Shown piece after piece: positions 22,240 to 25,245 of a stretch of 36,672 nucleotides of DNA. The position numbers and the translations under genes were made by a program. Below the pieces are notes generated by a model. The model saw only the letters and a program-made list of their open reading frames with translations. It had not been told where the DNA came from and made no database searches. Each line of letters opens with the position of its first letter. Within the stretch, counting starts at the first letter, position 1. This stretch comes from Labilithrix sp. (GTDB taxonomy: Bacteria; Myxococcota_A; Polyangia; Polyangiales; Polyangiaceae). Location of the stretch: the NCBI GenBank assembly GCA_028287065.1, contig JAQBQJ010000360.1:1-36672 (forward strand), given 5' to 3'.

Positions 22240-24048
22240 TCAGAACCAGGTCGCGCGGGCTCGTGCGTACGAGTCCTCGTTGCTCCGGCAGAGCGCGCCG
22301 AGCGTGCCGACGCGCGGGAGCTCCGTGCTGACCCAGTACTGCGCGGCCGCGAGCTTGCCCTCGTAGAAGTCGCGATCGGCCTCCGAAGCGCCGCGCGCGA
22401 GCCCTTCCTTCGCCGCCGCGGCTTGAACGATCCACTGCCATGCGACGACGACGATCGAGAGCATCTCCATGTAGTCGAAGCTGTGGCGCATCATCGCGTC
22501 GACGTCGCCCTTCATGCCGAGCTCGCCGAGCTGCATCGTGACCTCACCGACGGCGGTGACGGAGCCCTGCAGGCGGGTGAGCCATGCATCGGGGACACCG
22601 GCGCGCTTGGCGCGGCCGATCGTCTTCTCGATCGCGTCCACGAGCGCACGCAGGGCAGCTCCACCGCCGGCGATCACCTTGCGACCGAGCAGGTCCATGC
22701 TCTGGATCCCGCTCGTCCCTTCGTGCAGCGTGTTCAGCTTCTGATCGCGAAGCCACGACTCGGGCAGGTACTCGCTCGTGTAGCCGTAGCCGCCGTGGAT
22801 CTGCACCGCGAGCGCGTTCGACTCGAAGCCCTTCTCGGCCGGGAACGTCTTCGCGATCGGAGTGAGGAGATCGAGCAACAGGCGTGCGCGCGTGCGCTCG
22901 TCGTCCGAGGTGGCGTGCTCGGAGAGGTCCTGGAGGCGTGCGGCCTCGACGACGAGCGCGAGCCCTCCTTCGACGATCGCCTTCTGGCGCAGGAGCATGC
23001 GTCGCACGTCGGCGTGCTCGATGATGGGCACCTGCGGCGACTCGGGGCTCTTCGCGCCGAGCGGCCTGCCTTGCGGGCGCGTCTTCGCGTACTCGAGCGA
23101 CTCCTGGTAAGCGACCGCCGCCGTCGCGACGGCGTTCAGCCCGACCATGATGCGGGCCTCGTTCATCATCTGGAACATGTACGAGATGCCGCGATGGGGC
23201 TCGCCGACGAGCCAGCCGTGGCAGTCGTCTTGCTCGCCGAAGTTGATCGCGAGGCTCGCGATACCGCGCCAGCCGATCTTGTGGATGACGCCGGCGACGT
23301 GGACGTCGTTCGAAACGAGCGCGCCGGTCTTCGGGTCGATGCGCTTCTTCGGTATCGCGAAGAGCGACACGCCCTTGATCCCGGCCGGCGCGCCTTCGAT
23401 GCGCGCGAGCGTGAGGTGGACGATGTTCTCGGTGAGATCGTGATCGCCTGCAGAGATGAAGATCTTCGAGCCGCGGACGAGGTAGTGGCCGGCGTTCTCG
23501 ACCGGCTTGGCGACGGTCTTCACGTCGGTGAGGCTGCTGCCCGCCTGCGGCTCGGTGAGCGCCATCGTGCCGGTCCACTCGCCGGAGTACATGCGCGTCA
23601 TGAAGCGCTCGCGGAGCTCGTCGGTCCCGAACGACTCGAGGAGCCGCGCCGCGCCGGTGGTCAGGCCCGCGTAGCCGTACGCGCTGAGGTTCGCGGCCAT
23701 GAGGTACGCGTTCGCGAGCGTCGCCACGCAGGTGGGCAGGCTCGCTCCGCCGACGCTCGGCGGCCTCGTCGCGGTGATCGTGCCGAGCTCGACGAGGCGC
23801 GGATAGATGGCGTGCATCGCCGGGTGCACCCGGAGCTGGCCGCCGTCGAGCGCGGGCGGCGCTTGGTCCATCGGCTTGTATGCGGGGTAGAGCACCTCGC
23901 GCGCGAGCTTGCGTGCAGATTGCACGTACATCTCGCAGGTCTCGATGGTGTGATCGGCGAACGCCGGCAGCGCGAGGAGCGCCTTCGTGTCGAGCACCTC
24001 GTGCAGGAGGAACTCGACGTTGCGGTCGGAGAGGAGCGGGTTCGCCAT
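22240..24048 (-). CDS. Large acyl-CoA dehydrogenase (DmdC-like, about 600 residues)
   Basis: This FAD-dependent acyl-CoA dehydrogenase introduces a 2,3-double bond into acyl-CoA. At 602 residues it belongs to the longer class with a C-terminal extension, which includes 3-methylmercaptopropionyl-CoA dehydrogenase DmdC and fatty-acyl enzymes. Motifs seen are the FAD/substrate region WTGTMALTEPQAGSSLTDVK (about 158-177), YLVRGSKIFISAGDHDL, the C-terminal helical domain IHGGYGYTSEYLPE, and the catalytic base E443 in LHEGTSGIQSMDLLGRK. I chose the ATG at 24048 because the family starts there. An in-frame ATG at 24132 lies inside the hairpin element and would add an unrelated basic tail. The DMSP route is not implied; substrate is unknown. 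Gap to the histidine kinase is 53 bp. Confidence 0.93.
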   Translation of the reverse strand: MANPLLSDRNVEFLLHEVLDTKALLALPAFADHTIETCEMYVQSARKLAREVLYPAYKPMDQAPPALDGGQLRVHPAMHAIYPRLVELGTITATRPPSVGGASLPTCVATLANAYLMAANLSAYGYAGLTTGAARLLESFGTDELRERFMTRMYSGEWTGTMALTEPQAGSSLTDVKTVAKPVENAGHYLVRGSKIFISAGDHDLTENIVHLTLARIEGAPAGIKGVSLFAIPKKRIDPKTGALVSNDVHVAGVIHKIGWRGIASLAINFGEQDDCHGWLVGEPHRGISYMFQMMNEARIMVGLNAVATAAVAYQESLEYAKTRPQGRPLGAKSPESPQVPIIEHADVRRMLLRQKAIVEGGLALVVEAARLQDLSEHATSDDERTRARLLLDLLTPIAKTFPAEKGFESNALAVQIHGGYGYTSEYLPESWLRDQKLNTLHEGTSGIQSMDLLGRKVIAGGGAALRALVDAIEKTIGRAKRAGVPDAWLTRLQGSVTAVGEVTMQLGELGMKGDVDAMMRHSFDYMEMLSIVVVAWQWIVQAAAAKEGLARGASEADRDFYEGKLAAAQYWVSTELPRVGTLGALCRSNEDSYARARATWF

Positions 24049-24085
24049 GGCGGGGCGACTGTACTTCACTACCCGAGGGTGCGCG

Positions 24086-24136
24086 CTAAGTGGACGCGCA
24101 TGATTCTCGTCCCTCGAGTCGTGCTCGTCCACTTAG
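24086..24136 (-). repeat. 51-nt hairpin, outer copy A
   Basis: Read on the minus strand, this is an 11-bp perfect stem CTAAGTGGACG / CGTCCACTTAG around a 29-nt core that starts AGCACGACTCGAGGGACGAG. On that strand it is preceded by GTAG-AGG (24143-24137). Copy B at 24334-24384 has the same 11+29+11 design. The 29-nt cores agree at 22 positions, and the stems differ at three base pairs, all compensated. One more flanking base pair (G24085 with C24137) extends the stem. Confidence 0.85.
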
Positions 24137-24143
24137 CCTCTAC

Positions 24144-24327
24144 TCAGGTGGGGCCGGAGGCCCCCTCGTTGCTCCGCAACGATCCTCCCCCATCGCCTTC
24201 GGCGAAGTCGTGCTTCGCACGACGAGAGCTCAGCCCGCCTCTCGCCCGTGCGAAGCACGGTTCGCCGAAGGCGAGTCCAGGGAGGCTCGCGAGCCTGCGA
24301 GCGAGGGGGACGAAGTCCCCACCTGGG
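24144..24327. repeat. Long inverted repeat with hairpin chains in both arms
   Basis: The arms begin CTCAGGTGGGG (24144) and end as its near complement CCCCACCTGGG (24317-24327). The centre is CGAGAG / CTCTCG around 24229-24238. The left arm hairpins are 24150-24164 (GGGGCC stem), 24167-24181 (CGTTGC), 24193-24205 (TCGCC) and 24207-24223 (GTCGTGC). The right arm hairpins are 24246-24260 (CCGTGC), 24262-24274 (TCGCC), a 14-bp palindrome at 24283-24296, and 24306-24320 (GGGGAC). Matching hairpins in the two arms differ in sequence but each remains self-complementary. Confidence 0.85.
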
Positions 24328-24333
24328 TAGGAA

Positions 24334-24384
24334 CTAAATCGCCGAGCACGATCCGAGGTACGAGGATCGCGCTCGGCGATTTAG
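24334..24384 (+). repeat. 51-nt hairpin, outer copy B, just upstream of the hydrolase start
   Basis: The stem is CTAAATCGCCG / CGGCGATTTAG. The 29-nt core begins AGCACGATCCGAGGTACGAG and pairs further inside, so the imperfect stem reaches 21 bp with one mismatch. It is preceded by GTAG-GAA (24327-24333). It is the inverted homologue of 24086-24136. Its last three bases, TAG (24382-24384), are an in-frame stop for the downstream gene, which forces that gene to start after the hairpin (TTG at 24394). Confidence 0.85.
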
Positions 24385-24393
24385 ACTGGTCGC

Positions 24394-25245
24394 TTGGCGA
24401 CGTCCCTCGAAGCTGCGCTCCGCGAGACCCCGAAGCAGCGGCGGATCCGCCGGCTGAAGAAGGCTGGGCTCAACCTCGTGTTCGCGGCGATGGCGTACGC
24501 GATGATCGTGGGTGCGGCGCGGCTGCTTCATCGCCGCGTGCTGTATCAACCGCCGGAGGATGCGCCGGCGGAGCTGCCGGAGGGCGCCACGCTGCTCACG
24601 GCGAAGGCGGCCGACGGCGTCCTCGTGAACGCGCTGGAGTTCTCTGCGCCGAAGGCGACGCGGACGATCGTCCATTTCCACGGCAACGCGGAGACGGCCG
24701 AGGCGAACGCGTTCCTTGCGCGCGAGATGAAGAAGCGCGGCTTCTCGATGGTGCTGGTCGAGTATCGCGGGTACGGGCGGTCGCGCGGGACGTCGCCGAA
24801 CGAGGAGGGGCTCTACCTGGACGCGGCGGCGATCCTCGACGTGCTGGCCGCGCGGGGCGTGGGGCCGGACAAGACCGTGCTGTGGGGTCAGTCGCTCGGC
24901 ACGGGCGTGGCGGCGGAGATGGCGAACCGCGGTCGCGGCGCGCGTCTGGCGCTCGTGGCTCCGTTCACGTCGACGGTCGCGATGGCGTCGAGGGTGGTGC
25001 CGTTCCTGCCGGCGAGGCTGGTGATGGCCGATCGCTTCGACACGCTATCGAAGGCGCCGAGCATCGCAGCGCCGACGCTGGTGGTGCACGGCGACATCGA
25101 CGACGTGATCCCGTTCGAGCAGGGCGAAGAGGTGAGCCGGACGTTGCCGCATGGGACGTTCGTGAAGGTGCCGGAGGGGCGGCACGACAACCTGTACAAG
25201 TCGATGTCGGTCATCGCGGCGCTGGCGTCGCACGCGGGTAGCTAG
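24394..25245 (+). CDS. Membrane-anchored alpha/beta hydrolase (ABHD12/13-like)
   Basis: This 283-residue serine hydrolase is anchored by one N-terminal helix (about 24-43, AGLNLVFAAMAYAMIVGAAR) after a basic stretch (RRIRRLKK). The active-site elements are IVHFHGNAE (oxyanion region, about 92-100), EYRGYGRSRG (about 123-132), nucleophile S167 in WGQSLGTG, an acid in HGDIDDVIP (D234 or D236) and H264 in EGRHDN. This is the usual bacterial ABHD13/BEM46-like pattern, acting on an unknown ester. The start is TTG at 24394. In-frame TAG at 24382 excludes any upstream start, and the next Met lies inside the anchor. Its leader begins immediately after the hairpin element at 24334-24384. Confidence 0.9.
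   Translation: MATSLEAALRETPKQRRIRRLKKAGLNLVFAAMAYAMIVGAARLLHRRVLYQPPEDAPAELPEGATLLTAKAADGVLVNALEFSAPKATRTIVHFHGNAETAEANAFLAREMKKRGFSMVLVEYRGYGRSRGTSPNEEGLYLDAAAILDVLAARGVGPDKTVLWGQSLGTGVAAEMANRGRGARLALVAPFTSTVAMASRVVPFLPARLVMADRFDTLSKAPSIAAPTLVVHGDIDDVIPFEQGEEVSRTLPHGTFVKVPEGRHDNLYKSMSVIAALASHAGS

Follow-up and report, generated by a model that had tools for sequence, protein, structure and literature searches.

A long hairpin palindrome of Labilithrix sp. is very probably a miniature transposon of the IS630 family

The window (the whole stretch of 36,672 nucleotides that was analysed, from Labilithrix sp. contig JAQBQJ010000360.1) carries a palindromic element at 24086-24384, unstranded, which sits between two divergent genes. 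A sequence-only reading had described a two-fold symmetrical array at this place, and both its coordinates and its layout hold: two inverted 51-nt terminal hairpins, at 24086-24136 on the forward strand and, inverted, at 24334-24384 on the reverse strand, surround a linker with four small hairpins in each arm. The left arm holds H1 (24150-24164, loop GGA, of the GNA type), H2 (24167-24181, loop TCC, a TNC loop that is GNA on the other strand), H3 (24193-24205) and H4 (24207-24223), the last two with loop TTC. The right arm holds H5 (24246-24260), H6 (24262-24274) and H7 (24306-24320), each with loop GAA, and a further hairpin at 24286-24301 (all eight given on the forward strand). The latter is a minor blemish on the count of four hairpins per arm, as it is weak, was left out of the covariation counts, and takes a different form in the copies C204, C114, and C303. 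The outer ends read C-TAA...TTA-G. CTAA at 24086-24089 would comprise the C and TA of a presumed CTAG target followed by the first element base, and TTAG at 24381-24384 the last element base, the duplicated TA and the G of the target (both on the forward strand), judging from empty sites at other copies; the limits of the whole element likewise agree with those of further copies and with empty sites elsewhere.

Both flanking genes read away from the element. An acyl-CoA dehydrogenase gene occupies 22240-24048 on the reverse strand, with its start set at the ATG at 24048 (the longest frame would begin inside the element), and an alpha/beta hydrolase gene occupies 24394-25245 on the forward strand. 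The first possible start of the hydrolase gene is a TTG at 24394, 9 nt beyond the element, so its 5' leader may lie in the element. Because the genes diverge, this copy supplies no stop codon here. A transposase gene is absent from the 299-bp element, and the open frames spanning it are continuations from the flanking DNA.

The folding energy of 24076-24394 lies 11.5 SD (as DNA) and 11.8 SD (as RNA) below that of dinucleotide shuffles, with 0 of 100 shuffles as low. GNA loops closed by C-G form very stable DNA mini-hairpins, and such loops, or their complement TNC, recur in the linkers of the copies described below (H1 12/13, H2 11/13, H3 12/12, H4 12/12, H5 9/10, H6 8/9, and H7 12/12). The claim that differences between stems are compensatory was corroborated in the 51-nt hairpin, where both partners have changed in 12 of 21 pairs. 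Here, 92.1% of 669 cells were paired, compared with 22 to 40% in slid controls, and none of 500 shuffles reached as high a covariation score. This alignment comprised 34 sequences (30 from the own genome, three from the relative G010 and one from G009; 32 distinct), all of them regular-expression matches, and omitted the C137 duplicate, the C129 solo hairpin, and the C340 left hairpin. Left and right terminal hairpins form two separate old lineages, and many rows are closely related; the cells therefore outnumber the change events. In the local linker hairpins, counting seven of the eight, 99.6% of 471 cells are paired and both-sided change occurs in 3 of 41 pairs (2/6 in H2 and 1/7 in H4); most pairs in these seven are invariant, and further pair types were not above shuffles. 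Long-range pairing between the arms was rejected as a conserved fold, with covariation not above shuffles.

The further suggestion of selection on folding fared less well: the paired change is real, but selection itself was not borne out, as terminal stem mismatches show no G-T excess outside columns 15 and 16 (28 G-T versus 17 A-C over all columns; 11 versus 15 when the two columns are removed). With these small numbers, the mismatch pattern appears to give RNA-level selection no clear support. Template switching can create, keep, and pairwise change hairpins, according to the available text of PMC8794818, and could be the cause of the compensatory stem changes. The hairpins might thus be kept either for transposition or by a replication process that corrects palindromes, and the copies of the element offer a natural series for asking whether paired palindrome changes come from folding selection or from template switching.

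The sequence-only reading had named the lack of a second copy as a refutation; many further copies were found in the own genome and in relatives. The own genome (G000) is a draft of 7.09 Mb in 577 contigs that is 72% complete, and copies are named here by contig (C-number). A DNA search gave 53 matches, many being one copy on both strands, from which 29 places were laid out; among these, C137 and C438 are one locus with the same flank, several pieces at contig ends may pair up as single copies, and the weakest places consist of short matches to the linker. Beyond the 29 places, C531 and C366 are further element ends. Seven full-length copies have both ends (C234, C262, C438, C311, C321b, C204, and C114, the last with a decayed right end), and so do four internally deleted copies (C399, C191, C151, and C340). 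From their sequence, C129 and C559 look like single hairpins that join the left arm of one end to the right arm of the other. The ends, with their terminal inverted repeats (TIRs), are constant across many copies; the outermost stem bases differ from copy to copy, and some copies may therefore be immobile. The element lies at the start or end of nine contigs (C76, C91, C137, C303, C305, C321, C366, C417, and C522), which limits the assembly and makes the true copy number uncertain. In practical terms, the element breaks assemblies. Single TIR arms outside known copies gave seven matches with 2 or 3 mismatches each. Of these, C366 marks where another copy reaches the edge of its contig, C214 resembles a decayed hairpin, and five (C67, C212, C414, C423, and C433) look like chance; none of the seven was shown to lie at a transposase.

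Presence among relatives is patchy. Counting the own genome in both cases, the DNA search matched 4 of 12 genus genomes and the hairpin model, under stricter filters, 5 of 60 family genomes; a one-arm pattern matched 14 of 108 family genomes and its reversed control none. G020, from another genus, has the same layout with very different sequence. A pattern scan of named genomes, whose scope may not include the own genome and whose exact pattern misses diverged members, returned 23 stretches. Six belong to the family of the window element (four in Myxococcales bacterium GL140_1_metabinner_44, and one each in 340R_metabat_70 and Labilithrix sp. ACE_MYX8), and 17 are without CTAA/TTAG ends, several of them terminator-like. 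Linker-like hairpin arrays without visible terminal hairpins of the window type were also seen in G005 and G009 (L041:4076-4143, L043:3780-3860, L044:3230-3289, and L045:3699-3800); they could belong to a separate repeat or be bounded by different ends.

Most outer ends read C-TAA/TTA-G, and CTGA, CTAG or decayed variants also occur. For 12 copies, a genus-wide search with the joined flanks gave 30 loci, to which 13 more stretches were added, and eight sites could be aligned across the junction in some relative among them. The relative without the element reads CTAG at three of these eight sites and TTAT at a fourth, and four show no CTAG. Since element-free relatives have CTAG at these three, TA is doubled there, and the same may be presumed for the remaining copies. 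At C204, G005 reads GGGCGG-CTAG-AATG versus GGGCGG-CTGA...TTTAG-ACTAG in the own genome, and the orthologue stops at TAG in six of the seven relatives examined and at TAA in one. At the C129 solo hairpin, G005 reads CGA-CTAG-GATGC, and the left flank of C438 combined with the right flank of C262 is continuous in G011 as AAGG-CTAG-CGCG, where CTAG is the common stop of two convergent genes. At C340, G010 has TTAT in the CTAG position, with matching flanks on either side. CTAG was not seen at C311, C321b, C114 or C151 in any fetched relative aligned across the junction; the orthologues at C311 have their stop (TGA, TAG or TAA) at nearly the same place. The right flank of C559, compared on one side only, is preceded by CTAG in G010 but not in G005. 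The flanks of the window copy are ~1.2 kb apart in G010, where its empty site is not resolved.

The left flank of C438 and the right flank of C262 are neighbours in G005, G009, and G011, and lie at different copies in the own assembly (L037 for C262; L035/L065 for C438/C137). This exchange reflects either recombination between copies or a misjoin in the draft. Beside the left flank of C399, a G010 locus (L271, G010:C505) has a different hairpin array starting C-TGA in place of the C399 element, perhaps another or a decayed insertion at the same gene end.

No DDE_3 (IS630) match was found in the 72% complete draft of the own genome; an autonomous partner in the same genome is usual for such a MITE but not indispensable. 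Elsewhere, 21 matches were found, spread over six of the 12 genus genomes and two of another four. Testing 14 of these 21 loci gave a TIR pair scoring 12 or more in six, and all six sit in C-TA...TA-G, a context wider than the TA that the search required; L196, L201, and L210 gave pairs with lower scores (8 to 10) outside this context. The hairpin model found a terminal hairpin at 0 of 18 genus IS630 loci. For the TIRs of the genus IS630 elements, the target agrees with that of the palindrome, but the end sequences mostly differ.

IS630 elements of the relatives G049 and G012 have their first 21 to 25 terminal bases in common with the element. Because a pattern derived from the element located these ends, the end match was selected for, but the transposase between paired ends was not. 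G049, an assembly of one contig with 16,040,666 bases, has three elements of 1189 to 1191 bp that are 98.7-99.8% identical, begin CTAAATCACCGAGCGCGATCC, and have C...G ends. Compared with the right end of C191, their left ends match at 22 of 25 bases, with the first 21 identical, and their right ends at 19 of 25; the match extends for ~21 bases only and comes without the hairpin. In the L248 copy, the encoded protein is an IS630 transposase (NCBIfam NF033545, 204.9 bits against a cut-off of 100; Pfam DDE_3), L243 has a frame of the same length, and the gene in L247 looks frameshifted. Two G012 ends match the C191 right end at 25/25 and 24/25 bases and run on into a small palindrome resembling the one in the hairpin; one of them lies 93 bp from a DDE_3 match, and only ends and a fragment were seen in G012. 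In the window element, the right terminal hairpin is the end closer to the IS630 ends, matching a G012 end at 24 of 25 bases. With the 51-nt hairpin model (34 sequences, 30 of them own), the own genome showed no end pair spaced like a 1.2-kb element. Other long palindromes with similar CTAAAT..CGAGCGTGATT ends and different middles were seen in G039 (L249:2324-2628, 305 bp; L250:2315-2603, 289 bp), and G049 has palindromes with ends of the same type and again different middles (L245:2813-2978, 166 bp; L246:2355-2526, 172 bp). They probably represent additional MITE families within the same IS630 group.

The dispersed copies, their constant ends, the empty CTAG sites at three loci, the stop codons that the element supplies, and ends common to the IS630 elements of relatives together argue strongly that the palindrome is a non-autonomous MITE of the IS630 (Tc1/mariner-like) family, and I hold this reading with high confidence. 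Among the options first offered from sequence, a mobile miniature element is thus the one supported by the target site, by the empty sites in relatives, and by an autonomous transposon family that matches. The two outer arms, roughly C-TA-AATNNCCGAGCNNGATTC, serve as terminal inverted repeats, the outer arm of the left hairpin as the left TIR and that of the right hairpin as the right TIR. An IS630-type DDE transposase made elsewhere would bind and cut these ends, acting in trans, and a mobilising IS630 with ends CTAAATCACCGAG would be expected in the own species. Insertion at the palindrome CTAG would double TA and yield C-TA-[A...T]-TA-G.

The plan had also been likened to BIMEs, in which two inverted REP hairpins are moved on single strands by a RAYT, a Y1 tyrosine transposase. 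Two inverted hairpins with a linker, a GTAG just inside some of them, and 13 Y1_Tnp matches in the own genome (L024-L031 and five more places, with open frames of 131 to 461 aa) would suit such a REPIN. However, the analogy was not borne out: only 7 of 14 left ends and 8 of 13 right ends carry GTAG, so the tag is not conserved; insertion is into CTAG, a palindrome, with TA on each side; and the ends match IS630. The proposed search for a RAYT gene did turn up the Y1_Tnp matches, but none was seen beside the palindrome. Eight of the 13 Y1 loci were scanned and had no terminal hairpin, the other five being covered by the whole-genome hairpin-model search only, among the matches listed. A REP/BIME-type origin is accordingly very unlikely.

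About equally improbable is a conserved structured RNA or 3' UTR element under RNA-folding selection, such as a terminator or mRNA protector of convergent genes, even though the fold is strong, the stems covary, and copies often lie right at gene ends. No Rfam match above the gathering score was found in the window (0 matches), relatives with the same genes have empty sites, G-T is no commoner than A-C outside two stem columns, and the window copy lies between divergent genes; a tRNA scan found nothing. A secondary RNA-level role after insertion is possible. Least probable of all is a host site for the nucleoid or for recombination rather than a transposon. Its extreme palindromy and the exchanged flanks of C262 and C438 would fit, whereas the patchy presence, the empty sites, and the IS630 ends speak against it.

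Returning to the IS630-derived MITE, its ends often supply the stop codon of the adjacent gene. To call the coding frame next to 37 own-genome ends (C366 excluded), a codon model was trained on five genes of the window: 25 genes read in, 10 read away, and 2 were ambiguous with negative scores. The stop of the gene is the first in-frame codon of the element on 17 of the 25 inward-coding sides, the right side of C559 among them; seven stop 4 to 26 bases before the element, and one (C303) stops inside at +48. The C303 gene seems to enter the element in another frame near position 201 of L063 and to end at the TAG of an inner hairpin foot, 48 bases inside. Outside the own genome, three of seven ends were inward-coding and all three were exact stops. 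Insertion in a CTAG stop leaves the gene intact, as the first in-frame codon of the element is TAA, TGA or TAG.

CTAG itself is ~13-fold rarer than base composition predicts in the GC-rich own genome (43 observed versus 569 expected in 197.7 kb of loci, which were chosen around copies), and 9 of 30 testable CTAG sites outside elements are exact gene stops. As CTAG is rare and often a gene stop, the stop-codon habit follows at least partly from target choice and the loss of harmful insertions. I would put forward only tentatively, as a possibility I lean against, that this is a stop-codon-seeking lineage of IS630-type MITEs. Such a lineage would use CTAG stops as safe havens in GC-rich myxobacteria, its ends acting as replacement stops on both strands and changing together with their hairpin partners, which would let it enter the joint of convergent genes harmlessly; each 51-nt terminal hairpin, with CTAA and TTAG at either side, may be the smallest mobile unit in its own right. 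Tenzen and Ohtsubo reportedly found in 1991 that IS630 prefers TA within CTAG (cited in PMC2170065). In a genome where CTAG seldom occurs and commonly serves as a stop codon, such a known preference can become a near-harmless niche.

The available open-access texts yielded no description of the element or of stop-codon targeting by such a MITE. The element is best regarded as a known kind, an IS630-derived MITE, in an unusual form marked by hairpin TIRs, a linker of GNA hairpins, and stop codons supplied by the ends. Like REP/BIME elements and REPINs, as far as the available part of PMC3733652 describes them, it has inverted hairpins with a linker and a location at gene ends; unlike them, the family has no conserved tag motif, no linked RAYT was found, and the target differs. 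MITEPsy1 of Pseudomonas syringae, a 100-nt MITE at CTAG or YTAA, is similar in its target but duplicates the 4 nt, and its authors suggest an origin from ISPsy2 (available text of PMC3189936). The TA duplication is common to IS630 of Shigella sonnei and ISY100 (as given in the accessible portion of PMC2170065), which encode their own transposase, whereas the window element does not. The IS630-type elements of G049 and G012 have the first 21 to 25 terminal bases in common with it, and the three G049 copies also its C...G ends; the G049 elements, however, are ~1.2 kb long, coding, and end without a hairpin. A further counterpart is RUP of Streptococcus pneumoniae, a MITE of IS630-Spn1, which is likewise a short repeat with IS630-like TIRs and a TA-containing target, according to the accessible text of PMC2229807. 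Unlike the 107-bp RUP, the window element has TIRs that are each a 51-nt hairpin with CTAA/TTAG on both sides, and its middle is an array of small hairpins.
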